Virus record (IMG/VR): IMGVR_UViG_3300031857_024892 | Location: 99,949-163,948 of that record | Direction: 5' to 3' (one strand) | Source of the DNA: a virus | Length of the DNA stretch: 64,000 nucleotides | Shown here: piece after piece, positions 5,568-56,213 of the stretch | How positions within the stretch are numbered: position 1 is the first letter of the stretch | Layout of the letters: every line of letters begins with the position of its first letter | Notes under the pieces: model-generated | Seen by the model: the letters and a program-made list of their open reading frames with translations, nothing else | Databases searched by the model: none | Told to the model about the DNA's origin: nothing | Made by a program: the position numbers and the translations under genes

Positions 5568-7163
5568 ATGGAAGAGACAGACAAGTTAGTCGTCTTTGAT
5601 GCAGCTGCTCGTGAGAAGCTCCTCGCGGGTGTCAATACTTTGGCCGATGCTGTCCGAGTGACGATGGGCCCACGAGGTCGCAACGTCCTGATCGAGCAGC
5701 GCGGTCAACACCCGATCGTCACTAAGGACGGCGTCACTGTTGCGAAGTCGATCAATCTCCGCGACAAGTTGCAGAACTTGGGCGCCCAGATGATCAAGGA
5801 GGCAGCGTCCCGTTCGGCTGATGAAGCAGGAGATGGGACAACCACAGCAACTGTCCTCACGCAGGCGATCTTCAGCGAAGGCCTAAAGCTTGTTCTAGCA
5901 GGCTACCCATCGACTGACATCAAGGCGGGTATCGACCAAGCAGTCGAGCAGATCATCAGTAAGATTGACCAGATCGCTGTGCCTGCGGGATCACCAGAGG
6001 TACTGCGTCGTGTTGCAGTCATCTCAGCCAACGGCGAAGAGAGCCTGGGCGAGCTGATTGAGAATGCCATCAGGACAGTGGGTGAGGACGGTGTCGTCAC
6101 AGTCGAGGAAGCAAAGGGTTACAACAGCAGCTTGACTGTCGTCGATGGCACTCGCATTGACCGCGGATACACGTCTCCCTACTTCGTCACCGATCAAGAT
6201 CGGATGGTGTGTGAGATGGAGAAGCCTGCTGTGCTCCTCCTGAATAGGCGGATTGAGACGATCAAGGACATTGTGGGCCTCCTCGAGAAGAGCCTGTCCA
6301 ACAAGCGCCCACTCCTCATCATCGCAGACGACATCGACGGCGAAGCAATGCAGACACTCGTCCTTAACAGAGTGCGTGGTGCATTGAGCGTTTGTGCCAT
6401 CAGAGCTCCTGGGGCTGGCGCAGGTCGATATGATCAGATGCAGGATCTTGCTGTCCTGCTCGGCACTCGTGTCTTCTCTGCTGCTGATGCTGAGGATCTG
6501 TCAAAGGTGCAACTCACAGAGTTAGGCACATGCAACAAGGCGCTGATCGGGCGCACCGAGACAGTTCTAGTAGGCGCCAATGCTGACAGAGATCGGGTAG
6601 GTGAACGCCTCGACGAGATCCGGAAGCAGTATGCAGAGGCGATCGATGAGGGTGAGCGGCTGCAGACAAAGCAGCGTCTTGCCCGCCTATCAGGTGGCGT
6701 TGCCATCCTCCGTGTTGGCGGTGCCACCGAGGCGGAGCTTAAGGAACGTAAGGATCGTGCTGACGACGCACTGCACGCTGTGCAAGCTGCCATGAAGGAG
6801 GGTGTCGTCCCCGGCGGTGGCACAACACTCGTCAGAGCAGCCAACGATGTCCCGCTTCCTGCTGGTGACTTCACACCTGTTCAGGCGGGCTTTCAGGTTG
6901 TCAAGACAGCATGCCGTGCACCGTTCAGGCAGATCGTCACAAATAGCGGTGGAACACCCGAGATTGTGCTCAACCACTTGAACACGTTAAGCAGCACACA
7001 CGTCTACGATGCCTTCCACGGCACTTATGGAGAGATGCTCGAGCTTGGGATCGTTGATCCTGCGCGGGTCGTCAAGTGTGCTCTGAGAAATGCCGCCTCT
7101 GCAGCAGGCATGATGCTCACTGTAGGATGCGCTCTCGTTGAGGATGAAGCGCCTGCAACGTGA
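5568..7163 (+). CDS. groEL: GroEL-type chaperonin (Hsp60)
   Basis: 531 residues, full length for the family. ATP-site motifs are clear: TMGPRGRNV (32-40), KDGVTVAKS (53-61), GDGTTTATV (88-96) and PGGGTTL near 414. The C-terminus lacks the GGM repeat of bacterial GroEL and ends DEAPAT. The protein would form a folding chamber for phage proteins, as in phage EL. No GroES homologue is recognisable in the window, so it may use host GroES or work without one, as reported for EL. It is followed directly by a small operon. Confidence 0.95.
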   Translation: MEETDKLVVFDAAAREKLLAGVNTLADAVRVTMGPRGRNVLIEQRGQHPIVTKDGVTVAKSINLRDKLQNLGAQMIKEAASRSADEAGDGTTTATVLTQAIFSEGLKLVLAGYPSTDIKAGIDQAVEQIISKIDQIAVPAGSPEVLRRVAVISANGEESLGELIENAIRTVGEDGVVTVEEAKGYNSSLTVVDGTRIDRGYTSPYFVTDQDRMVCEMEKPAVLLLNRRIETIKDIVGLLEKSLSNKRPLLIIADDIDGEAMQTLVLNRVRGALSVCAIRAPGAGAGRYDQMQDLAVLLGTRVFSAADAEDLSKVQLTELGTCNKALIGRTETVLVGANADRDRVGERLDEIRKQYAEAIDEGERLQTKQRLARLSGGVAILRVGGATEAELKERKDRADDALHAVQAAMKEGVVPGGGTTLVRAANDVPLPAGDFTPVQAGFQVVKTACRAPFRQIVTNSGGTPEIVLNHLNTLSSTHVYDAFHGTYGEMLELGIVDPARVVKCALRNAASAAGMMLTVGCALVEDEAPAT

Positions 7164-28172: not shown

Positions 28173-28415
28173 ATGAAGGCAGGTGACATCGTCAAGCTGA
28201 ACAGCTGGTTTCATCAAACTGTCTCAGTATTCCCAGAGCCTAATCCACAGACAACAATCGGTGACATTGAGTATCCAAGAGGGACGATTGCTCTAATTCT
28301 CGAGGTTCTCGACAGTCACGAAGATGACGGCCCAAGCATGAATACGTACATGCGTGTTCTTGTCGGAGGAAAGGTGGGTTATGTCCGTGCATATTCCTGC
28401 GAGGAGATCAAGTGA
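28173..28415 (+). CDS. MKPGDL-family small barrel protein (80 aa)
   Basis: MKAGDIVKLNSWFHQTVSVF, with YPRGTIALILEVLDSHED and VLVGGKVGYVRAYSCEEIK. Shine-Dalgarno AGGAGAG. Three such genes are consecutive here (28173-28848). Overlaps the next by 4 nt. Confidence 0.7.
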   Translation: MKAGDIVKLNSWFHQTVSVFPEPNPQTTIGDIEYPRGTIALILEVLDSHEDDGPSMNTYMRVLVGGKVGYVRAYSCEEIK

Positions 28416-28627
28416 ACGTGGGTGACCTGGTCAGGTTCTGGACACCTGCGGTCCCAAAGAGCCTGCAACACAATGGGATCATCATAGATGTCACTCACGA
28501 GAATGTGGGCGGTCTAAAGATGGGGAGCATGTACCACGTGCTCACATCCCGTGGGCAGATCGTGACAATGACTGTGGGTGGCCTGGAGCTCGTGTCACCC
28601 GTGCAAGACAACTTGAGCGTGGTATGA
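28412..28627 (+). CDS. MKPGDL-family small barrel protein (71 aa)
   Basis: GTG start; MNVGDLVRFWTPAVPKSLQH, NGIIIDVTHENVGG and SMYHVLTSRGQIVTM. Its 3' end overlaps the CCCGTG promoter for the next gene. Confidence 0.7.
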   Translation: MNVGDLVRFWTPAVPKSLQHNGIIIDVTHENVGGLKMGSMYHVLTSRGQIVTMTVGGLELVSPVQDNLSVV

Positions 28628-28628
28628 T
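28598..28628 (+). promoter_or_regulatory. Phage promoter motif CCCGTG-N19-TATGAT
   Basis: CCCGTG (28598-28603) lies inside the end of the upstream gene. TGG-TATGAT is at 28623-28628. Next gene's Shine-Dalgarno GAGGAGAGG follows. Confidence 0.7.
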
Positions 28629-28647
28629 GCAGCTGTGAGGAGAGGCA

Positions 28648-28848
28648 ATGAAGCCCGGTGACCTTGTGCAATACACACTACGGCGAAGAGGTTCGACTGC
28701 GCCCTACCCAATCGGGATCCTGCTTGAGATCCGGCCTAAGTCGCATCCACTCATTCGGGAACGCGAGCACGACTACATCGTCCTAATCGGTGGCGAGACA
28801 CGAACTACGACACGACGATATCTAAAACCGATCGAGGAGGCACAATGA
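28648..28848 (+). CDS. MKPGDL-family small barrel protein (66 aa)
   Basis: MKPGDLVQYTLRRRGSTAPY with IGILLEIRPKSHP and YIVLIGGETRTTTRRYLKPI. Unusually basic for the group. Overlaps the phosphoesterase start by 4 nt. Confidence 0.7.
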   Translation: MKPGDLVQYTLRRRGSTAPYPIGILLEIRPKSHPLIREREHDYIVLIGGETRTTTRRYLKPIEEAQ

Positions 28849-31101: not shown

Positions 31102-31929
31102 ATGAAAAAGCTTTTTAAGTGGCCAGGCGGTAAATCATCTGAGATCAAGCAGATCACAGCCTTGATGCCAACCTCATATGATAGGATCGTTGAACCTTTT
31201 GCAGGTTCTGCAGCGCTGTCATTTCACTTAGAGCGACCTGCCATTATAAATGATCTTGATGCGCAGGTGATGAATTTTTACGCCTGTCTCCAGAAAGATT
31301 GGCAGCAGTTGCACAGCCTTATTGAACAAGACAGGAAGTGTCCATACATGCTAAACAGCGATCCTGCCAGAGAGACAACACGATCACTTGAAGACGCATA
31401 CTATGCTGCTAGAACACGTCTAAATTCTGCAAAGTCTCTTAGCTTGTCTAGTCTTGACTTTCAATCGGCATCTGACTTCTATGTGACGCGCGCGCTCTCG
31501 TTCTCAGGCATGATCAGAAACTCACCTAAAGGTGGGTCGAATGTCCCTTATGGGTGGTATAAGGACTTTAAAAATAGCTTAAATGTTAATGTGAGCAATC
31601 TTATTAGCTCTTGGACGATCTTAAACGGATCTTATAGCGCCGTGTCTGCACACCTCACTGATGGTGATTTTGTGTTTCTAGACCCGCCATACCGCAGCAG
31701 AGCAGGCTATCAGACACCCGACTGGAACGATGTTGACCATCAAAATTTCATTGACTGGACAAAGTCTTTAAAATGTAAGTGGATGATTGTGCACACAGAC
31801 GATGATCTATATCGTGCAGAATTTGCAAGCTATAAGATCATCACAAAATCACACATGTATTCTCAGAACTTCATGGGAAGAAATAATTCTGGTTCTAAAG
31901 TAGATCATATTTACATTCTCAACTATTAG
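31102..31929 (+). CDS. DNA adenine methyltransferase, Dam (D12) class
   Basis: 275 residues. FKWPGGKSSEIKQITALMP and EPFAGSAALSFHL bind S-adenosylmethionine. FLDPPYRSRAGYQ carries the catalytic DPPY at 194-197. INDLDAQVMNFY follows the family. It transfers a methyl group to adenine N6, probably at the site cut by the upstream nuclease. GATC is the commonest target of the class, but specificity cannot be read here. Confidence 0.9.
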   Translation: MKKLFKWPGGKSSEIKQITALMPTSYDRIVEPFAGSAALSFHLERPAIINDLDAQVMNFYACLQKDWQQLHSLIEQDRKCPYMLNSDPARETTRSLEDAYYAARTRLNSAKSLSLSSLDFQSASDFYVTRALSFSGMIRNSPKGGSNVPYGWYKDFKNSLNVNVSNLISSWTILNGSYSAVSAHLTDGDFVFLDPPYRSRAGYQTPDWNDVDHQNFIDWTKSLKCKWMIVHTDDDLYRAEFASYKIITKSHMYSQNFMGRNNSGSKVDHIYILNY

Positions 31930-31990: not shown

Positions 31991-32368
31991 ATGGTCAAGA
32001 AAGGCTACACTGCAGTTCCCAAAGGCTCTCGCGCAGTCGCGTGGACACCCCGGCGTTGCAACAAGAACAGAGTAGTAATCCCACGTGGGGTAAGTGGTGT
32101 AGTGACGGGTAAGAGTAACGTCCGTGATTGCAACTGGACCAGGGCCGTTATCGGGGGTGTGGTCCACACTCTCCATCCTTGGGATTGGGACTTCACACCC
32201 ATCAGAGTAGGCGAACTTCGCCGCTGGAAGGATGGACGGGCCGGAACATTCTTGGTTGTCAGTATCGAATCACTGTCATCTTGCCATTGTCTCGGGGACG
32301 GCAATGTCTTTGGGACGACCTGCAGGTACCTCGAGGACCTCACGGAGGTGATCAGTGAAACCCGGTGA
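31991..32368 (+). CDS. First gene of the small-barrel array (125 aa)
   Basis: MVKKGYTAVPKGSRAVAWTP, VVIPRGVSGVVTG and VGELRRWKDGRAGTFLVV look like two consecutive small barrels, which explains the doubled length. It ends SETR, whose codons overlap the next MKPGD start by 14 nt. No Shine-Dalgarno. Confidence 0.65.
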   Translation: MVKKGYTAVPKGSRAVAWTPRRCNKNRVVIPRGVSGVVTGKSNVRDCNWTRAVIGGVVHTLHPWDWDFTPIRVGELRRWKDGRAGTFLVVSIESLSSCHCLGDGNVFGTTCRYLEDLTEVISETR

Positions 32369-32534
32369 TCTCGCAGTCGTCAAGTGCAAGCGGGTTCCCA
32401 ATCTTAGCGGGAAGGTCGTCCTCCTTGTCGAGTGGCAGAAGCCCCCAGCAGCATTTCAGGGTAGTCGCTGGCTCTGCCTTGTTGATGGGACAGCACGATC
32501 CATCCAGTCAGGCTGGTTGAAGGAGATCAAGTGA
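32355..32534 (+). CDS. Array member 1 (59 aa)
   Basis: GTG start; MKPGDLAVVKCKRVPNLSGK, VVLLVEWQKPP and WLCLVDGTARSIQSGWLKEI. The shortest member. It ends IK and joins the next gene by a 4-nt GTGA overlap rather than 14 nt. Confidence 0.7.
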   Translation: MKPGDLAVVKCKRVPNLSGKVVLLVEWQKPPAAFQGSRWLCLVDGTARSIQSGWLKEIK

Positions 32535-32767
32535 AGCCCGGCGATCTTCTGCGAACGATCCGTGGCGGGTTCATCCTACCGGACCCGGAGTACTGGACGA
32601 ACGACGAGACCGGGACGTCCCTCCCGCTCGCTCGGATGGGCGAGCTCGTCCTCGCCGTGAAGTTCGACGGCTCTGACAGCGGGAGCTGGGTGAGGGTGAT
32701 CCATCCCACCCACGGCATCCGAGATATCCTGCTGGGTGATCTGGAGCCTGTCAATGAAACCAGGTGA
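32531..32767 (+). CDS. Array member 2 (78 aa)
   Basis: GTG start; MKPGDLLRTIRGGFILPDPE, then LPLARMGELVLAVKFDGSDS and RVIHPTHGIRDILLGDLEPV. Ends NETR over the next start. Confidence 0.7.
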   Translation: MKPGDLLRTIRGGFILPDPEYWTNDETGTSLPLARMGELVLAVKFDGSDSGSWVRVIHPTHGIRDILLGDLEPVNETR

Positions 32768-32972
32768 TCTCGTCACGCTCAACCACCACCGCCGCTATAC
32801 TGGAATCGACATGGCCGATGGTTACTTCATCGATATCCCAGGCGGTGCCATTGGCGTCTACATGGGACTTACCACCGATCGTGAGTACAACATCTATGAT
32901 CTGGTCCTCACTAAGGGCAGGTTGGTGAAATGCGCCCGGAGCGTCTGGAGTGTCCTCGATGAAACCCGGTGA
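32754..32972 (+). CDS. Array member 3 (72 aa)
   Basis: ATG inside the NETR codons of member 2. MKPGDLVTLNHHRRYTGIDM, IPGGAIGVYMGLTTD and VLTKGRLVKCARSVWSVL. Ends DETR. Confidence 0.7.
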   Translation: MKPGDLVTLNHHRRYTGIDMADGYFIDIPGGAIGVYMGLTTDREYNIYDLVLTKGRLVKCARSVWSVLDETR

Positions 32973-33156
32973 CCTTGCCCGTCTCAAGGATATCGGCATC
33001 CACAGCGGAGAGATTGTGATGATAGTCAAGGTGCATCCCTGGCGTGATACTCCCAATGCCTTCGGTTCGTGGATGACAGTTGACTTCATGTTCGACGGAC
33101 AAGTCGTTGAAGAATGCGACTCGAGCTTCCTGGAGGTGATCGATGAAACCCGGTGA
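32959..33156 (+). CDS. Array member 4 (65 aa)
   Basis: MKPGDLARLKDIGIHSGEIV, MIVKVHPWRD and TVDFMFDGQVVEECDSSFLE. Ends DETR. Confidence 0.7.
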   Translation: MKPGDLARLKDIGIHSGEIVMIVKVHPWRDTPNAFGSWMTVDFMFDGQVVEECDSSFLEVIDETR

Positions 33157-33343
33157 TCTCGTTCAAGTCATAAAGGGCGTCCATGGTCAGGGTGAGATCG
33201 GAGTCGTCCTGGGCGAGGTCGAAGAGTCACGTAACTGGGACTTGTCCTGTCCTCTGCTCGAGGTTCTCTTTCACGATGGTCCTCGTGACTGCCACCCGTC
33301 GAATCTCCAGAAGCCTGATGGTAGGACCCGGAGGCGTGAATGA
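33143..33343 (+). CDS. Array member 5 (66 aa)
   Basis: MKPGDLVQVIKGVHGQGEIG, VVLGEVEESRNWD and LLEVLFHDGPRDCHPSNL. Ends RTRRRE instead of DETR and joins the next by a 4-nt ATGA overlap. Confidence 0.7.
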   Translation: MKPGDLVQVIKGVHGQGEIGVVLGEVEESRNWDLSCPLLEVLFHDGPRDCHPSNLQKPDGRTRRRE

Positions 33344-33567
33344 ACCTGGGTGATCTTGTTAGGCTCGACATTCCCGGCCAGCGTGCTCACGGAAAGATCG
33401 GCATTGTCGTGGGCAAGGAGCTAAAAGCCACCTACGATTGGATGCGGGACCACATGGGTCAACCTGTCAAATCTTTCAGCTACGAGGTCATGGTTGGAAC
33501 TGAGGTCTGGCGAGTGGGTTATAATGAACTCCTAGCGGAAACGGAGTGGGACGATGAAGCGCGGTGA
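33340..33567 (+). CDS. Array member 6 (75 aa)
   Basis: MNLGDLVRLDIPGQRAHGKI, GIVVGKELKATYDW and YEVMVGTEVWRVGYNELLAE. The HGKIGIVVG core is KOW-like. Ends DEAR. Confidence 0.7.
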   Translation: MNLGDLVRLDIPGQRAHGKIGIVVGKELKATYDWMRDHMGQPVKSFSYEVMVGTEVWRVGYNELLAETEWDDEAR

Positions 33568-33802
33568 TCTCGTTATCCTGACAAACTGTAACACTAGGTT
33601 CGAGGGTTCGTACGGTTACGAATTCGGTTGTAATCCCAAAGGTGACTTAACGCTAAAAGACGAAGTCTGGGTTCCAAACGGAACTATCGGAATGTACTGT
33701 GAGGATCCCAAGGACGACGGAGGAAAGTTCGGTGTCCTCGTCCACGGTCGCCTCCTCTGGTTCGACCAGATCGATTCGAGGGCCATCAATGAAACCGGGT
33801 GA
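33554..33802 (+). CDS. Array member 7 (82 aa)
   Basis: MKRGDLVILTNCNTRFEGSY, WVPNGTIGMYCEDP and FGVLVHGRLLWFDQIDSRAI. Ends NETG. Confidence 0.7.
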   Translation: MKRGDLVILTNCNTRFEGSYGYEFGCNPKGDLTLKDEVWVPNGTIGMYCEDPKDDGGKFGVLVHGRLLWFDQIDSRAINETG

Positions 33803-33989
33803 TCTAGTTCGCATAAACCGTAATATCCGCAATGAGAAGCCAGAGACCCGCGCCATCCAAGAAGGTGCAGTTTTCATGGTTGTCGGACCCGACAAGACAT
33901 TCTCACGGGATGTTGTCTACATCATGACACCCTTCGGTCTGCAAAGTATTCACGTCTGCTACCTGGAAAAGCTCGATGAAACCCGGTGA
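33789..33989 (+). CDS. Array member 8 (66 aa)
   Basis: MKPGDLVRINRNIRNEKPET, IQEGAVFMVVGPDK and VVYIMTPFGLQSIHVCYLEK. Ends DETR. Confidence 0.7.
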   Translation: MKPGDLVRINRNIRNEKPETRAIQEGAVFMVVGPDKTFSRDVVYIMTPFGLQSIHVCYLEKLDETR

Positions 33990-34170
33990 CATCGTCCGTT
34001 TCAAGAGTGGCACGCCCATCTTCAAGCGTCAGGGTGAGACACTCGCGCTCATCACTCGGGTCGTTCCCCTGGATGAAGGAAGAACAACTTACCTCTGTCT
34101 TCTCATGCCTACCGGCGAAGTGAAGGCGAGAAGGATCGAGGATGTCGAGGTGGTCATTGAAGCCGGGTGA
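33976..34170 (+). CDS. Array member 9 (64 aa)
   Basis: MKPGDIVRFKSGTPIFKRQG, ETLALITRVVPLDEG and YLCLLMPTGEVKARRIEDVE. Ends IEAG. Confidence 0.7.
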   Translation: MKPGDIVRFKSGTPIFKRQGETLALITRVVPLDEGRTTYLCLLMPTGEVKARRIEDVEVVIEAG

Positions 34171-34390
34171 TCTGGTCATCGCGAAGGCAGCCAAGGCCAA
34201 GAGGCGGGATCCTCCTCCCGCAATCATGCTCTACAACTGGAGGACGAATGTCTACCACCCGTGGAAGAACGGAAATCTAGGCATGATCATCGATCTCGAC
34301 CCGAAGACGGAAGGTGTGATCGTCATGGCTGATGGGAGCGTGGGCTGGGTGTCGCAGGTGATCATCGAGGTGGCTGATGAAACCGGGTGA
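34157..34390 (+). CDS. Array member 10 (77 aa), TTG start
   Basis: The start TTGAAGCCGGGTGAT keeps the 14-nt overlap geometry with TTG in place of ATG. MKPGDLVIAKAAKAKRRDPP, GNLGMIIDLDPKTEG and VIVMADGSVGWVSQVIIEVA. Ends DETG. Confidence 0.7.
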   Translation: MKPGDLVIAKAAKAKRRDPPPAIMLYNWRTNVYHPWKNGNLGMIIDLDPKTEGVIVMADGSVGWVSQVIIEVADETG

Positions 34391-34625
34391 TCTGGTCACA
34401 ATCCGCAGGATGAACCTCTCCAATACAGCTCGCATCGCCTACATCGAAGTCTACGATAGGTACGACCACATCGCAGTCCCCCACAAAAAGAAGTGGGAAC
34501 ACGGTGAGGTTGGCATTCTCCTTGAGGGACGGGACGACAAGCGGGAGATGGTCCAAGTCCTCCACTGCGGACGGGTAGGGTGGGTCGACGAAGAAATGCT
34601 GCGGGTGATCGATGAAGCCGGGTGA
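34377..34625 (+). CDS. Array member 11 (82 aa)
   Basis: MKPGDLVTIRRMNLSNTARI, HGEVGILLEGRDDK and VQVLHCGRVGWVDEEMLRVI. The GRVGWV strand matches members 3, 7 and 10. Ends DEAG. Confidence 0.7.
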   Translation: MKPGDLVTIRRMNLSNTARIAYIEVYDRYDHIAVPHKKKWEHGEVGILLEGRDDKREMVQVLHCGRVGWVDEEMLRVIDEAG

Positions 34626-34803
34626 TCTCTGCATGATCGTGCATCCTGCCAGGCGTGAGTGGAGCGACTCCGACGTCTGCATGATCCTCAGGCCCGTTAG
34701 TCATGAGGACGGCATCGACATCTACTCACACTGCGACTGGTGGGTCATGTGGGACGGGCGTGAGACGGCCTGGGCAAAGACGGATCTGGAGCCCATCGAA
34801 TGA
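34612..34803 (+). CDS. Array member 12 (63 aa)
   Basis: MKPGDLCMIVHPARREWSDS, DVCMILRPVSHED and WWVMWDGRETAWAKTDLEPI. Ends IE with a 4-nt overlap to the next gene. Confidence 0.7.
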   Translation: MKPGDLCMIVHPARREWSDSDVCMILRPVSHEDGIDIYSHCDWWVMWDGRETAWAKTDLEPIE

Positions 34804-35087
34804 ACTTCCTCCGCAGGGTCTATCGCTGGCTCTACGTCCGCGTCAAAGGTCACTATCCGCTCGGGTCTCTCGTCAAGTTCAAGCCGGGTATCGGATTCGA
34901 CGGGATCTACTGGAAGTCTCCGGGAGACCCAAGATTTCACGCGATCGGGTTGGTGATCGATGGGTGGCGGAAGAATGTACACCCGTTGCCGTCGGGTGTG
35001 TTTGCTGAGGGAAGTGTGGTGATCTTCGACGGTGAGCGATACGACATGGAGAACTGGGAACTCGAACCCATCGATGAACCCGTGTAA
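34800..35087 (+). CDS. Last array gene with basic N-terminal extension (95 aa)
   Basis: MNFLRRVYRWLYVRVKGHYP precedes a LGSLVKFKPG barrel start, then IGLVIDGWRKNVH and GSVVIFDGERYDMENWELEP. The basic aromatic N-terminus could be membrane- or nucleic-acid-binding. The stop is part of the next promoter (CCCGTGTAA). Confidence 0.65.
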   Translation: MNFLRRVYRWLYVRVKGHYPLGSLVKFKPGIGFDGIYWKSPGDPRFHAIGLVIDGWRKNVHPLPSGVFAEGSVVIFDGERYDMENWELEPIDEPV

Positions 35088-35129: not shown

Positions 35130-35558
35130 CTGGGCACGAACTACTACAGTGTGAAGCGCGGATTCGACTACGAGTCCATCGACTCCTTCTGGGAAGTCCG
35201 GGGCACTGAGGATTGCATCCACATCGGGAAAAGCTCCGGTGGCTGGTGCTTCAGCCTCCACGTTGTGCCCGAGATGGGTATCAACACCTACGAGGACTGG
35301 GTCCGCATGTTCATCGATCCCGACCGGATCATCATGGATGAGTACGGTGACGTGGTCCCGTTCACTGAGATGATCGCGAAGATCACAGCCCGGCGAGGCA
35401 ACATCAACAAACCACCCACTCCCGAGTTCTTGGAGAACAACCATGCGGAACCGGGGCCTCACGGTCTCGTCCGCCACAGGATCGAGTTCTTTGAGGACGG
35501 GGGCTGTGTGGGTCACGGCGAGGGCACATATGATTATATTTCAGGCGAGTTTAGCTGA
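35130..35558 (+). CDS. Conserved phage GTNYY...IHIGKSSGGW protein, CTG start proposed
   Basis: AAGGAGG lies 4 nt before CTG at 35130, which reads (L/M)GTNYYSVKRG. I recall a common phage family that begins MGTNYY and has IHIGKSSGGW, present here as CIHIGKSSGGWCFSLHV. The first GTG is 21 nt later, cuts off the GTNYY motif and is too far from the Shine-Dalgarno. 142 codons. The usual zinc-binding Cys pair of the family is not evident between the two motifs. Function unknown. Confidence 0.7.
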   Translation: MGTNYYSVKRGFDYESIDSFWEVRGTEDCIHIGKSSGGWCFSLHVVPEMGINTYEDWVRMFIDPDRIIMDEYGDVVPFTEMIAKITARRGNINKPPTPEFLENNHAEPGPHGLVRHRIEFFEDGGCVGHGEGTYDYISGEFS

Positions 35559-36010: not shown

Positions 36011-36300
36011 ACATGATCGATAATGAGTACCCGCTCAATGATCCGCGCTTTGCTCCCCCGCGTGAAGACAACATCAATGCCCTGGTCGCTGAGGTGGAGC
36101 GGCTGCGCGCCGAGCGAGACCACTTCCGTGAGGCGTGGGCGGCAGCACAGGCGCGGTTGGACTGTGGTGTGGATGCTGCGAACGCTGTTCGAGAGGAGCT
36201 CGCCGACGTGGTGGCGTGGCTGCGTAAGTGGGGCGGCGACTGCGACGACGCTGCTGAAACCATCGAACGTGGCGAGCACCGCCGCGAGGAGGAGCCATGA
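36007..36300 (+). CDS. Coiled-coil protein with IERGEHR tail
   Basis: GTG at 36007 in a GTGA overlap, or ATG at 36013. INALVAEVERLRAERDHFRE is a coiled coil. The C-terminal VVAWLRKWGGDCDDAAETIE then RGEHRREEEP recurs in the next gene, indicating duplication of the C-terminal module. Confidence 0.6.
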   Translation: MNMIDNEYPLNDPRFAPPREDNINALVAEVERLRAERDHFREAWAAAQARLDCGVDAANAVREELADVVAWLRKWGGDCDDAAETIERGEHRREEEP

Positions 36301-36485
36301 AGGACACGGGCTTCGGAGGAGAAGGGAGCGACCGAGCGTACCATTGGGGGCGCATGTCAGAACGTGATGCCATCGTGGCGTGGCTGCGTAGACAGGCCGA
36401 GACAGGTGATCCGATGCGGGCAACGGGTCGTCGTCGCATTGCAGACGCCATCGAACGCGGCGAGCACCGCAAGGAGGAAGAATGA
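36297..36485 (+). CDS. Paralogous IERGEHR-tail protein (62 aa)
   Basis: MKDTGFGGEGSDRAYHWGRM then AIVAWLRRQAETGDPM and ADAIERGEHRKEEE. The last 40 residues align with the end of the preceding protein. Overlaps both neighbours by 4 nt. Confidence 0.6.
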   Translation: MKDTGFGGEGSDRAYHWGRMSERDAIVAWLRRQAETGDPMRATGRRRIADAIERGEHRKEEE

Positions 36486-36652
36486 GCAACGAGCACGTAG
36501 ACAATGAGATCCCCGAAGGGGTCAGCTTTCCCATCACGGATCCCACGATTATCGCGAAGCTCGATAGCCTGACGCCCGAGGAGATGGAGAAGTTTGCAGC
36601 CATCCTGAAGGAGAGCCTTCAGGAGCTTCGTAGGAAGAAGGAGAGCCCATGA
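36482..36652 (+). CDS. Small helical protein (56 aa)
   Basis: MSNEHVDNEIPEGVSFPITD, then LDSLTPEEMEKFAAILKESL and a basic RRKKESP end. ATGA overlaps on both sides support it. Confidence 0.6.
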   Translation: MSNEHVDNEIPEGVSFPITDPTIIAKLDSLTPEEMEKFAAILKESLQELRRKKESP

Positions 36653-39866: not shown

Positions 39867-40133
39867 GTGATCGACAAAAAGGTAGTGATCGGTGACTTTA
39901 GGGGTGTCAAGCGAGGTATGCTCGTCCGTCTAACTGAGTCGGGCGGGCATTCTAAGCGCGGTGATGTGGCACTTGTCTTAGAGACTGTCCTAATACCCCG
40001 CAACGTCAATATGAATGAGCACTACGACCCACTGCTTGTTGTCCTTAATCGAGGCTTAACATCTCGGTGGCCTGTTGAATTTGTTGAGATCATTCCAGAT
40101 GAGATGACAGATGAGCAGCATCAACTGCGGTGA
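39867..40133 (+). CDS. MKPGDL-related small protein (88 aa)
   Basis: GTG start after AGAGAGC. MIDKKVVIGDFRGVKRGMLV, RLTESGGHSKRGDVALVLET and DPLLVVLNRGLTSRWPVEFV. The RGMLVRL...RGDVALVLE pattern is barrel-like. Its final codons GGTGA overlap the GDLV codons of the next gene. Confidence 0.6.
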   Translation: MIDKKVVIGDFRGVKRGMLVRLTESGGHSKRGDVALVLETVLIPRNVNMNEHYDPLLVVLNRGLTSRWPVEFVEIIPDEMTDEQHQLR

Positions 40134-43913: not shown

Positions 43914-45770
43914 ATGAAAAACATAGAGCAAAAATATCGCAAACTTTCTGATATTGACCACTGCCTCGAAAGACCGGGAATGTGGGTCGGTTCAATCAAG
44001 CCCAAGCAGGAGGATTACCATCTGCATGACGGTGAGAAGTTTGTCAAGAGGAGTGTGACCTACAACCCAGCCTTCCTCAAGATCTTCGATGAGATCGTCT
44101 CCAACTCGATTGACGAGCACCGACGCAATTCAAAGCTGAATGAAGTTCGTGTCACTGTCGATCCTGATGCCGGTTCCATCAAGATCTGGGACAACGGTGG
44201 CATCCCAGTCGTCATGCACGCTGAGCACAATGAGTGGATCCCTGAGATGATCTTCAGCAACCTGAAGGCAGGCTCCAACTTCAATGATGATGAGGAGCGG
44301 CTAGTTGCTGGTACGAACGGTGTGGGTTCAACTCTCACCAACATCTTCTCCACCAAGTTCCGCATCAGGACCTGTGATGGCAAGAATGCCTTCGAGCAGA
44401 CGTTCAGCAACAACATGCGTGAGCGGACGCAGGCGAAGATTGTGAAGTGGAAGGATCACTTCACTGAGATCTTCTACATCCCAGACCTTCCTCGCTTTAG
44501 CCTGGAGAAGATCGATGCTGACCACGTCGAGATGATGCGCAAGCGATGCATTGACCTTGCTGCATGCAATCCCAGTTTGACCATCACTTTCAACGAGACA
44601 GCATACAAGTTTGACAAGTTTGCTGACTACTGCAAGCTGTATGTCCCTGATGTGGTTTATGAGGAAGGCGCTCGGTGGAAGGTGGGCATCGCTCCATCTG
44701 AAGGCTCTTTCACGCAGGTGTCGTTCGTCAACTCTGTGGAGACAAAGGACGGTGGGACGCATGTCGACTACATCGCATCTCAGGTGATCGAGTGGATCAG
44801 AGAGCGTGTGAAGAAGAAGCACAAGGTCGATCTTAAACCTTCAGAGCTTCGCAACCACTTCTTCCTCTTTGTCCAGGCAGACATCGTCAATCCGGCATTC
44901 TCCTCACAGACGAAGGAGAAGATGATCACCGAGGCGAAGGAGTTTGGCTCTAAGTTCGAGCTGGCTGACAAGACGCTGAAGGCTGTCCTCGCCTCCGAGG
45001 TCGTCCAGCGCATCCTCGATTGGGCACAGCAGAAGGCACTCGCTGATGAGCGGAAGCAACTCCGTGAGCTCAACAAGAACCTTGCTAAAGGCAAGGTGCT
45101 CAAGCTGATCGATGCAAAGGCAAGGTACGGACGAGGCGACTGCACCCTGGCTCTCTTCGAGGGAGACAGCGCGTCTTCGGCATTCCGGAAGTACCGCGAC
45201 CCACAGCGTCAAGGTGCCTTCCCACTCAGGGGAAAGTTTGTCAACGTGACTGAGATGCCTGCTACCAAGATCATCCAGAACCAGGAAGTGAAGGACATCC
45301 TCGCCGCCACAGGCCTGAAGATGGGTGAGGAACCCAAGGAGCTTCGGTACGGCAAGGTGCTGATCTACTCCGACGCCGACCCTGATGGCGACTCGATCGC
45401 GGGCCTGCTCATCAACTTCTTCGGTCGCTTCTGGCCCGAACTCTTCAATCAGGGACGTGTCTGCCGTGTGATGACACCGCTCGTGGTTGCAAAGCGCAAG
45501 GGTGAGACGCTCTCATTCTACTCAGCTGATGAGTTCAACGAGTGGCAGGCTAAGCAGAAAGATCTCTCAAAGTGGGACGTTGCTTATAAAAAGGGTTTGG
45601 CTGCGCTGGAAGATGAGGAGTACAGAGAGATCATCCAGAACCCTAACATGTTTGCCATCGAGGCAGACGGCTCTCTCAAGCAGACACTGGACGCATGGTT
45701 CGGTGGCGATCCAGCCATCAGAAAAATAAAGATCATGGGCACACAGGTGGAGACAGAAGAAAATGTCTGA
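43914..45770 (+). CDS. Type II DNA topoisomerase large subunit (ATPase/Toprim), T4 gp39-like
   Basis: 618 residues. GHKL ATPase motifs: EIVSNSIDEHRRN, IKIWDNGGIPV and AGTNGVGSTLTN near 136. Toprim: TLALFEGDSASSAFRKYRDP near 416 and VLIYSDADPDGDSIAGLLIN near 486. It hydrolyses ATP and, with the medium subunit, relaxes or decatenates phage DNA. The first ATG has no clear Shine-Dalgarno. TAGTCA precedes it. Not split as in T4 (gp39/gp60). Confidence 0.95.
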   Translation: MKNIEQKYRKLSDIDHCLERPGMWVGSIKPKQEDYHLHDGEKFVKRSVTYNPAFLKIFDEIVSNSIDEHRRNSKLNEVRVTVDPDAGSIKIWDNGGIPVVMHAEHNEWIPEMIFSNLKAGSNFNDDEERLVAGTNGVGSTLTNIFSTKFRIRTCDGKNAFEQTFSNNMRERTQAKIVKWKDHFTEIFYIPDLPRFSLEKIDADHVEMMRKRCIDLAACNPSLTITFNETAYKFDKFADYCKLYVPDVVYEEGARWKVGIAPSEGSFTQVSFVNSVETKDGGTHVDYIASQVIEWIRERVKKKHKVDLKPSELRNHFFLFVQADIVNPAFSSQTKEKMITEAKEFGSKFELADKTLKAVLASEVVQRILDWAQQKALADERKQLRELNKNLAKGKVLKLIDAKARYGRGDCTLALFEGDSASSAFRKYRDPQRQGAFPLRGKFVNVTEMPATKIIQNQEVKDILAATGLKMGEEPKELRYGKVLIYSDADPDGDSIAGLLINFFGRFWPELFNQGRVCRVMTPLVVAKRKGETLSFYSADEFNEWQAKQKDLSKWDVAYKKGLAALEDEEYREIIQNPNMFAIEADGSLKQTLDAWFGGDPAIRKIKIMGTQVETEENV

Positions 45771-48384: not shown

Positions 48385-48654
48385 ATGGTGAGGCTCAAAG
48401 CGGTGCAACGACCTGTGATTGGGACGCTGGTGCGCCTTAAGTCGTGGAACAAAGAAGCTTACATTAAAGTTGCTTCTCACACGCCTGACAGTGAAGACAC
48501 TTACTCACTTGTCCCAAGCGGCGCAACCGCCATGGTCGTAGGATACCACACACGGGCCTGGGACAGAGCGGACATCGTTCCCGTTGTTACAGTAGGCAAC
48601 GTCACAGGCTGGATCTTCATGGATGAATGGGAGGTGCTCGATGACACAGATTAA
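48385..48654 (+). CDS. MKPGDL-related small protein (89 aa)
   Basis: MVRLKAVQRPVIGTLVRLKS, ATAMVVGYHTRAWDRAD and PVVTVGNVTGWIFMDEWEVL. Ends DDTD over the next start with the same 14-nt overlap as the large array. Confidence 0.65.
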   Translation: MVRLKAVQRPVIGTLVRLKSWNKEAYIKVASHTPDSEDTYSLVPSGATAMVVGYHTRAWDRADIVPVVTVGNVTGWIFMDEWEVLDDTD

Positions 48655-52520: not shown

Positions 52521-52597
52521 GACCTCGTAGCTCAGCTGGATAGAGCAACGCTTTCCTAAAGCGTAGGTCACAGGTTCAAATCCTGTCGCGGTCGCCA
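52521..52597 (+). tRNA. tRNA-Arg(CCT)
   Basis: Acceptor stem GACCTCG/CGCGGTC with one mismatch, D arm GCTC/GAGC, anticodon arm ACGCT-TTCCTAA-AGCGT and T arm ACAGG-TTCAAAT-CCTGT. The CCA end is encoded. It reads AGG. Confidence 0.9.
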
Positions 52598-52601
52598 CAT
52601 T

Positions 52602-52672
52602 GCAGGCATGGCATATGGGTTGTGCACCAGCCTTCCAAGCTGGATAACCGGGTTCGAATCCCGGTGCCTGCT
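52602..52672 (+). tRNA. tRNA-Gly(TCC)
   Basis: Acceptor GCAGGCA/TGCCTGC, anticodon arm CCAGC-CTTCCAA-GCTGG, T arm CCGGG-TTCGAAT-CCCGG. CCA is not encoded. It reads GGA. Confidence 0.9.
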
Positions 52673-52680
52673 ATCTTTAT

Positions 52681-52757
52681 TCCCGATTAGCTCAGTTGGT
52701 TAGAGCAACGGACTGTTAATCCGTGGGTGCCCCGTTCAAGTCGGGGATCGGGAGCCA
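52681..52757 (+). tRNA. tRNA-Asn(GTT)
   Basis: Acceptor TCCCGAT/ATCGGGA, D arm GCTC/GAGC, anticodon arm ACGGA-CTGTTAA-TCCGT, encoded CCA. Confidence 0.9.
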
Positions 52758-55549: not shown

Positions 55550-55603
55550 GTGACGACACCGAGAGGACTAACAAAGAAATGGCCGGTTAGCTCAATTGGA
55601 TAG
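55550..55603 (+). CDS. Possible 17-aa leader peptide overlapping tRNA-Arg
   Basis: GTG after AGTTAGGAGGAAC; MTTPRGLTKKWPVSSIG, stop inside the D arm of the tRNA. The strong ribosome site argues for translation, but it may be a relic of a lost gene. Confidence 0.3.
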   Translation: MTTPRGLTKKWPVSSIG

Positions 55604-55657
55604 AGCAAGAGGTTTCTACCCTCTAGGTTGGGAGTTCGAGTCTCTCACCGGTCGCCA
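55581..55657 (+). tRNA. tRNA-Arg(TCT)
   Basis: Acceptor GGCCGGT/ACCGGTC, D arm GCTC/GAGC, anticodon arm AGAGG-TTTCTAC-CCTCT, T arm GGGAG-TTCGAGT-CTCTC, encoded CCA. It reads AGA. Confidence 0.9.
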
Positions 55658-55725
55658 CTTCAAAACTTAGTTAGGCCACGGCTTGACGAACATAAGACAC
55701 TCACAAAATGACACCTGGCTCTTGA

Positions 55726-55801
55726 TGGGGTGTAACTCAGTGGTCAGAGTGCGGTTCTTATAAAGCCGAGGTCGTGGGTTCAATCCCCACCACCCCAACC
55801 A
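55726..55801 (+). tRNA. tRNA-Ile(TAT)
   Basis: Acceptor TGGGGTG/CACCCCA, anticodon arm CGGTT-CTTATAA-AGCCG, T arm GTGGG-TTCAATC-CCCAC, encoded CCA. A UAU anticodon reads the rare codon AUA directly, unlike the usual lysidine-modified CAU. Confidence 0.85.
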
Positions 55802-55808
55802 TTTACTC

Positions 55809-55896
55809 GGGAGAGTTGCTAGTGTTGGTAGCTAGCACCGGACTGTAAATCCGGTTCCTTCGGACGTCGGGAGTTCAATTCTCTCCTCTCCCACCA
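55809..55896 (+). tRNA. tRNA-Tyr(GTA)
   Basis: Acceptor GGGAGAG/CTCTCCC, anticodon arm CCGGA-CTGTAAA-TCCGG, a long variable arm as normal for tRNA-Tyr, encoded CCA. Confidence 0.9.
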
Positions 55897-55900
55897 TTTT

Positions 55901-55990
55901 GCCCCCATGTCCCGAGCCTGGCCGAAGGGAACGGACTCTTAATCCGGCGTGTAAAAACCATCGATGGTTCAAATCCATCTGGGGGCACCA
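55901..55990 (+). tRNA. Class II-like tRNA with CTT (Lys) anticodon, isotype uncertain
   Basis: 90 nt: acceptor GCCCCCA/TGGGGGC, D stem TCCC/GGGA with a 13-nt loop, anticodon arm CGGA-CTCTTAA-TCCG, a variable region of about 15 nt, T arm GATGG-TTCAAAT-CCATC, encoded CCA. The anticodon loop says Lys(CUU), but the long variable region is typical of Leu or Ser. Confidence 0.75.
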
Positions 55991-55994
55991 TCTT

Positions 55995-56074
55995 CGAGGC
56001 GTATACCCTCCGCCTGATAAGCGGTAGAAAGGTTAGCTGGTTGCACGCAAGTTCAAATCTTGCCGCCTCGACCA
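55995..56074 (+). tRNA. Atypical tRNA-Ile(GAT), D arm apparently missing
   Basis: Acceptor CGAGGCG/CGCCTCG, T arm GCAAG-TTCAAAT-CTTGC and encoded CCA are normal. The anticodon arm CCGC-CTGATAA-GCGG starts only 8 nt after the acceptor stem, leaving no room for a D arm. Some 22 nt separate the anticodon and T arms. Confidence 0.65.
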
Positions 56075-56079
56075 TTTAT

Positions 56080-56152
<73 letters not shown>

Positions 56153-56213
56153 CCTTTTGATCCATTGAATTAAAGTGTTGCGTGTTAGAGGAGCACACGC
56201 TCCATTGACTTAA

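Follow-up and report, generated by a model that had tools for sequence, protein, structure and literature searches.

Several kinds of chained or bordered small genes have been described in phages. The nin region of lambdoid phages, as presented in an excerpt of one report (PMC8022706), is a chain of tightly packed small genes with ATGA overlaps, and the PeSL cassettes of T4-type phages, in an excerpt of another (PMC4503421), are mobile regulatory cassettes carrying promoter-terminator motifs. Conserved gene-border sequences have been proposed to target recombination in mosaic phages (excerpt of PMC3974807), and relaxed homologous recombination in phages has also been described (excerpt of PMC3945230). 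It is debated whether the swapping of single phage genes is guided by short common sequences or is random with selection. Here we describe an array of small genes in an uncultured virus (IMG/VR record IMGVR_UViG_3300031857_024892, 163,948 bases), within a stretch of 64,000 nucleotides (nt) covering bases 99949-163948 of that record, which we refer to as the window. A 14-nt DNA word encodes both the end of one array gene and the start of the next, and comparison with related loci indicates that the array is probably an instance of cassette-type mosaicism with this coding overlap as the joint.

The array consists of 12 small genes without gaps (32355-34803), sited between a calcineurin-like phosphoesterase gene (28845) and a conserved gene at 35151. 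The genes have 59-82 codons, begin with M-K-P-G-D-L or a close variant and belong to one SH3-like family. Genes were called with our own script, which prefers start codons at a family head and permits overlaps of up to 20 nt; the starts of other genes may be misplaced. At ten of the 12 junctions from 32355 to 34612, ATGAAACCCGGTGA or a variant of it opens one gene and makes up the final 14 nt of its predecessor, while at the remaining two (32531 and 33340) the overlap is 4 nt. All ten word sites listed in the original prediction are present, with 0-3 mismatches and on one strand, and all ten are 14-nt overlaps of open genes. The prediction was less exact about the two ends. The TTG start at 34157 is as claimed, but the start at 32355 is GTG rather than ATG, and the tail given as (D/N)-E-T-R is not constant, reading S-E-T-R (32355), D-E-A-R (33554), N-E-T-G (33789), I-E-A-G (34157), D-E-T-G (34377) and D-E-A-G (34612). 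With up to three mismatches the word matches the window 18 times against 5.46 expected, a count reached by none of 100 shuffles, and the reversed degenerate pattern gave no matches in the same record. Of the two further sites that had been put forward, 48641 does share the overlap length although its sequence differs, and the related geometry at 40111 turns out to be a longer overlap with the same last bases as the word (Table 1).

The head contains a stop in each of its two other frames, aTGA immediately and ggTGA at the end, so that any upstream gene that is out of frame with it is terminated after 4 or 14 nt. Relatives were collected through the phosphoesterase gene, which gave five close loci, and through patterns of tandem words, which gave more. 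In this first set, 215 family starts in 32 regions have an upstream gene, with an overlap of 14 nt at 98, 4 nt at 72, 1 nt at three and none at 42; the count covers related or similar phages, includes near-identical records, and there is one further start without a called upstream gene. A second set came from a scan for M-K-V-G-D heads. IMG/VR contigs commonly contain arrays of this kind with 14-nt overlaps (at least 120 stretches), with up to nine successive 14-nt joints (in L134). The second set comprised 118 loci, 117 from the scan (L106-L222) and one found earlier, and 109 were kept after near-identical ones had been dropped. Its 948 family starts with an upstream gene show the 14-nt overlap at 636, 4 nt at 145, none at 126, 1 nt at 33 and others at eight. 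Overlaps at the starts of genes outside the family, counted without near-identical records, are scattered over 4, 1, 14, 11, 8, 17 and more.

The common tail x-E-T/A-R/G is the head read in another frame and is a by-product of the conserved head. The proposal that the word reflects nothing but conserved protein ends, which the original prediction had named as an outcome that would count against it, thus holds for the tail, where ETR is read off the next head. It does not fully hold for the head, because its glycine codon is GGT much more often than in the background, including at heads where a stop is not required. The 14-nt joints require GGT. Among first-set heads where it is not needed, it is found in 49 of 64 with a 4-nt overlap and in 31 of 40 with a gap or 1-nt overlap, compared with 342 of 971 elsewhere in the family genes, 332 of 715 for glycines preceding Asp and 101 of 314 within codons 3-7 in other genes (the near-identical record G038 omitted). 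In the second set GGT is present in 102 of 145 heads at 4-nt junctions and 88 of 126 at gaps, compared with 1359 of 4392 elsewhere, and the overall share outside the heads is 31-46%. Such retention is consistent with heads moving between the two kinds of junction.

The original prediction had suggested looking in related genomes for gain, loss or shuffling with breakpoints at the word, and this is what the relatives show: units are missing, added and re-paired, and similarity switches at the word. In four phages (G002, G003, G007 and G011) the array lies next to the same flanking gene groups, on one side or both, and its content differs. G002, whose contig ends within the array, is without the three genes at 32355-32972 and without the gene at 33143, and a gene of 334 amino acids (aa) replaces two others; in every one of these differences similarity ends or resumes at a head. 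Between the window and G002 similar blocks begin or end at the words 32355, 32959, 33143, 33340, 33554 and 33976. The G002 ortholog of gene 33976 (98% identical) lies behind the 334-aa gene after a 7-nt gap, and in G011 the ortholog of 34612, the last unit in the window, directly precedes that of 32959. Behind the gene at 31991, on the left of the array, four phages have four different genes and each of these starts with GTG, because the G belongs to a codon of the left gene. Similarly, the start codon of the 32959 unit is ATG in the window and GTG in G002, where the unit is directly behind the ortholog of 31991, and that of the 34157 unit is TTG in the window and GTG in G007, behind another left gene. 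Beyond these loci, the array parts had no match, by DNA or protein, in the 'phages' collection of named phages; the adjoining phosphoesterase matched 90 records, all below 60% identity; and the tandem word pattern, searched with one spacing range, was found in no stretch of the cellular genome_contigs. Assembly errors at repeats are an unlikely source of the arrays because exact runs are short and separate contigs contain the same arrays.

Orthologous units with different neighbours allow the joint to be placed more closely. In the first set 25 of 30 pairs with a different left gene were kept, the other five being dropped since the upstream sequence was still alike or the heads were not, and there were 13 pairs with a different right gene; the second set gave 220 and 208 orthologous pairs with other neighbours. 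Pairs below 60% protein identity were excluded from the junction tests, and the near-identical records G038, G048 and G049 were left out of the first-set junction analyses. In the 25 left-different pairs similarity starts at the start codon, and in the 13 right-different pairs it generally runs through the word and then stops; the exceptions among these two groups were G006/G037, with little upstream similarity (0.23), and G028a/G028b, similar on both sides. Left-different orthologs of the first set are 0.35 identical at positions -15 to -1, compared with 0.33 for random heads, and 0.77 identical at +14 to +40, compared with 0.36 (27 of 28 pairs kept in each case). This pattern, orthologs with changed neighbours and a switch of similarity at the gene border, is that of cassette-type mosaicism.

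In the second set, identity was expressed as the excess over a matched background from the same pairs of loci. For the first base of the start codon the excess was 0.00 (-0.09 to 0.09) over 120 combinations in which the left gene differs and 0.23 (0.16 to 0.30) over 122 in which the right gene differs and the left is the same, intervals that, like the p-values below, are optimistic because the combinations share genes. At position +24 the excess was 0.66 for left-different and -0.01 for right-different combinations. Positions 5-7 of the word are common to both sides, and from about position 17 the sequence is shared only with the right gene. Thus the first base follows the left gene and the sequence past the word follows the right gene, which places the joint inside the word. 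Of the right-different pairs with 14-nt overlaps in both loci, 133 of 152 are in register. The class of junction (14 nt, 4 nt or gap) follows the upstream gene in this set: the two loci have the same class in 161 of the 189 right-different combinations and in 126 of the 198 left-different ones (p=1.5e-6).

These observations suggest how such an array might work. Each unit would be a gene cassette for a small SH3-like protein with the conserved start M-K-x-G-D, whose head DNA ends an upstream gene arriving in either of the other frames. The upstream tail supplies the ribosome-binding site as well as the base with which the next start codon begins. At the best junctions this tail spells GGAGGTGATC, a full Shine-Dalgarno sequence complementary to the 3' end of 16S RNA, as at 33132-33141 ahead of the start at 33143. 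Units would be exchanged between related phages by recombination with the joint inside the common head word, and a joint at this place would restore start, stop, binding site and spacing together; frame and binding site are indeed preserved at the 14-nt joints in relatives. The common sequence may guide the recombination, translational coupling presumably matters at the joints, and the head may be retained partly for fitting any upstream gene. A bolder form, which we regard as rather doubtful, is that the head word has evolved as a universal joint, with synonymous sites kept to stop the upstream gene in either frame and to pair with any head, so that phages could exchange genes one at a time in the right frame, with neither a spacer nor a site-specific recombinase and without losing coupled translation.

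The claim that the word acts as a recombination seam is upheld as to where the joints fall, in the 120 left-different and 122 right-different combinations, and not as to frequency, since there is no excess of turnover at the word. The simplest alternative is that exchange occurs anywhere along the genome and only joints that leave both genes whole survive, which in a gapless array would be start-stop overlaps; the word, being the family head with a suitable glycine codon, would have no part in the exchange. Several results weigh on this side, against a role for the word. Adjacent pairs at family junctions of the second set are broken at 187 of 232 for 14 nt, 20 of 23 for 4 or 1 nt and 26 of 32 for gaps, turnover thus being independent of the overlap class, and with similar turnover where the 14-nt overlap is absent the word marks the joints and need not drive the exchange. 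(Pairs of two non-family genes are broken at 90 of 186 junctions of 4 or 1 nt and 245 of 451 gaps; the first set leans the other way, with 34 of 38 14-nt and 20 of 31 4- or 1-nt family junctions broken among 14 record pairs of our own choosing.) Non-family genes also lose similarity near their starts, with an identity of 0.49 at -15 to -1 (43 of 52 pairs kept), and selection for whole genes may be sufficient for breaks there. Between the 14-nt heads of the window array the exact runs are short, with a median of 9 nt and none longer than 19 nt, a length below the minimal pairing lengths of 31-34 bp for RecA and 23-27 bp for Red-beta quoted in the excerpt of PMC3945230; in the clade the runs reach at most 31 nt, with 9 of 780 pairs at 23 nt or more. 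A family member at 28648 begins with M-K-P-G-D and has the word with one mismatch, yet the preceding gene is not overlapped. A recent indel between the near-identical G036 and G048 lies away from any word, and in the first set alone the difference in junction class (11 of 13 against 16 of 25) does not reach significance (p=0.27). Moreover, the left gene uses the first base of the start codon, and also positions 5-7, in its own codons, and selection after the event could mimic the linkage of that first base to the left gene. What exchange anywhere explains less well is that the first base goes with the upstream gene and that so many pairs are in register. Joints made without homology should often carry the right gene's own first base, as non-family genes after a gap do (0.82 kept, 60 pairs) in contrast to family genes at 14-nt joints (0.54, 70 pairs). 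Non-family genes also tend to retain part of their own binding site (0.49 identity at -15 to -1 against 0.35), and the retention of GGT where no stop is required is likewise left over. We therefore consider unguided exchange possible but not the likelier account.

It would seem improbable that the 14-nt overlap was fixed solely by selection for coupled translation and compact coding, with gene swaps incidental. The binding site in the tail is stronger at 14-nt junctions, where 34 of 84 have a match of at least six bases to AAGGAGGTGATC compared with 14 of 62 at 4 nt, 5 of 36 at gaps and 160 of 984 at other gene starts (near-identical records G038, G048 and G049 left out), as coupling would predict, but this leaves unexplained the position of the joint inside the word and the association of junction class with the upstream gene. 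Tandem duplication of one unit together with its overlap, followed by divergence, would make the word common by descent only. All members do share the head, and probably the fold, and a few copies within a genome span head to head. The orthologous pairs suggest, on the other side, that most array members of a phage have their nearest kin in other phages. Duplication of units within a genome, which had been predicted along with swapping, is rare, however, with 4 and 13 paralogous stretches compared with the 220 and 208 pairs of orthologs with other neighbours between phages, and as the main source of the array it was rejected for want of copies, leaving it very unlikely indeed. Cassette exchange with the coding overlap as joint is the reading that we prefer. 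On the enzymes that might be involved, the same virus record encodes a RecA-type recombinase outside the window (open frame of 387 aa; L105 1501-2304, record bases 69185-69988), and a RecT looked for in the record was not found.

No family in PHROG or Pfam covers the array proteins, which gave scattered weak matches only. A model of the 34612 protein, built with 46 members, has five strands with a pLDDT of 87.6 and a pTM of 0.74. The nearest folds found by Foldseek are SH3-like, namely YorP of B. subtilis, PsaE and Tudor, the best being YorP (2heq; TM 0.68, E 0.022), and there were no matches at E<=0.001. The likeness to these proteins is that of a predicted five-strand barrel and is too weak for function to be read from it; on the modelled fold, a role as an SH3-like adaptor may be imagined.

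Table 1. Coordinates of the array genes, word copies, flanking genes and related overlaps in the window
Position	Strand	Feature	Basis
28173..28848	+	Three further members of the family, separate from the array (28173, 28412, 28648); gaps or a 4-nt overlap between them	
31991..32368	+	Left flank gene, 125 aa, MVKKGYT..EVISETR; stop inside the head of the next gene	
32344..32353	+	GGAGGTGATC, Shine-Dalgarno sequence in the tail of gene 31991, serves gene 32355	sequence
32355..32368	+	Word, GTG start, 14-nt overlap	
32355..32534	+	Array gene A, 59 aa; 4-nt overlap at its end	
32531..32767	+	Array gene B, 78 aa; head GTGAAGCCCGGCGA (with GGC, second frame has no stop)	
32754..32767	+	Word, 14-nt overlap	
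32754..32972	+	Array gene C, 72 aa	
32959..32972	+	Word, exact, ATG start, 14-nt overlap	
32959..33156	+	Array gene 32959, 65 aa; orthologs in G002 and G011, with different neighbours each time	
33132..33141	+	GGAGGTGATC, Shine-Dalgarno sequence within LEVIDETR, the tail of gene 32959	sequence
33143..33156	+	Word, exact, 14-nt overlap	
33143..33343	+	Array gene D, 66 aa; missing between the orthologs of its neighbours in G002; 4-nt overlap at its end	
33340..33567	+	Array gene 33340, 75 aa, MNLGD head; junction of 4 nt here, 14 nt in G002	
33554..33567	+	Word, 14-nt overlap	
33554..33802	+	Array gene E, 82 aa	
33789..33802	+	Word, 14-nt overlap	
33789..33989	+	Array gene F, 66 aa	
33976..33989	+	Word, exact, 14-nt overlap	
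33976..34170	+	Array gene 33976, 64 aa	
34157..34170	+	Word, TTG start, 14-nt overlap	
34157..34390	+	Array gene 34157, 77 aa	
34377..34390	+	Word, 14-nt overlap	
34377..34625	+	Array gene 34377, 82 aa	
34612..34625	+	Word, 14-nt overlap	
34612..34803	+	Array gene 34612, 63 aa; modelled as an SH3-like barrel	
34800..35087	+	Right flank gene, 95 aa, 4-nt overlap	
40111..40133	+	23-nt overlap with the same CGGTGA at its end, before an M-S-S-I-N-C-G-D-L-V head	
48641..48654	+	14-nt overlap of different sequence, TAA stop, before an M-T-Q-I-K-K-G-D-L-V head	

Just ahead of the array the window has a gene for a D12-class adenine methyltransferase (31102-31929). In G002 this gene and the two before it are absent, and 47 nt separate the phosphoesterase from the ortholog of 31991. 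A second chain of small genes (36013-36652) has 4-nt overlaps, and two neighbours in it both end in R-G-E-H-R-R/K-E-E-E, which suggests a local duplication. Elsewhere the window contains a Cpn60/TCP-1 chaperonin gene (5568-7163; E 3.7e-71), here in a phage, a DNA gyrase B-like topoisomerase gene (43914-45770) and seven tRNA genes in two clusters (52521-52757 and 55581-56154).

A search of the titles and abstract openings of open-licence papers found no description of such an overlap and, as far as that search shows, a coding overlap with stops in two frames that serves as a joint and can be placed to within a few bases is new. Hundreds of short, similar joints in public contigs make the question of guided or random exchange measurable to a few bases, and if it is true that the word guides exchange, a protein-coding sequence would double as a joint for trading genes. 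Compared with the systems described, as far as the excerpted accounts of them extend, the array resembles the nin region in that packed small phage genes are linked by start-stop overlaps. The joints of the nin region are ATGA overlaps, whereas 10 of the 12 array junctions are of 14 nt and 2 of 12 of 4 nt, and the longer ones lie in the conserved head of one family, with a second stop in the other frame. With the PeSL cassettes it shares a repeated border sequence tied to gene shuffling, but the PeSL are promoter-terminator motifs while the repeat of the array is protein-coding in two frames. Set beside the boundary sequences proposed for mosaic phages, the boundary in the array is itself a start-stop overlap, within which the joint can be placed to a few bases.

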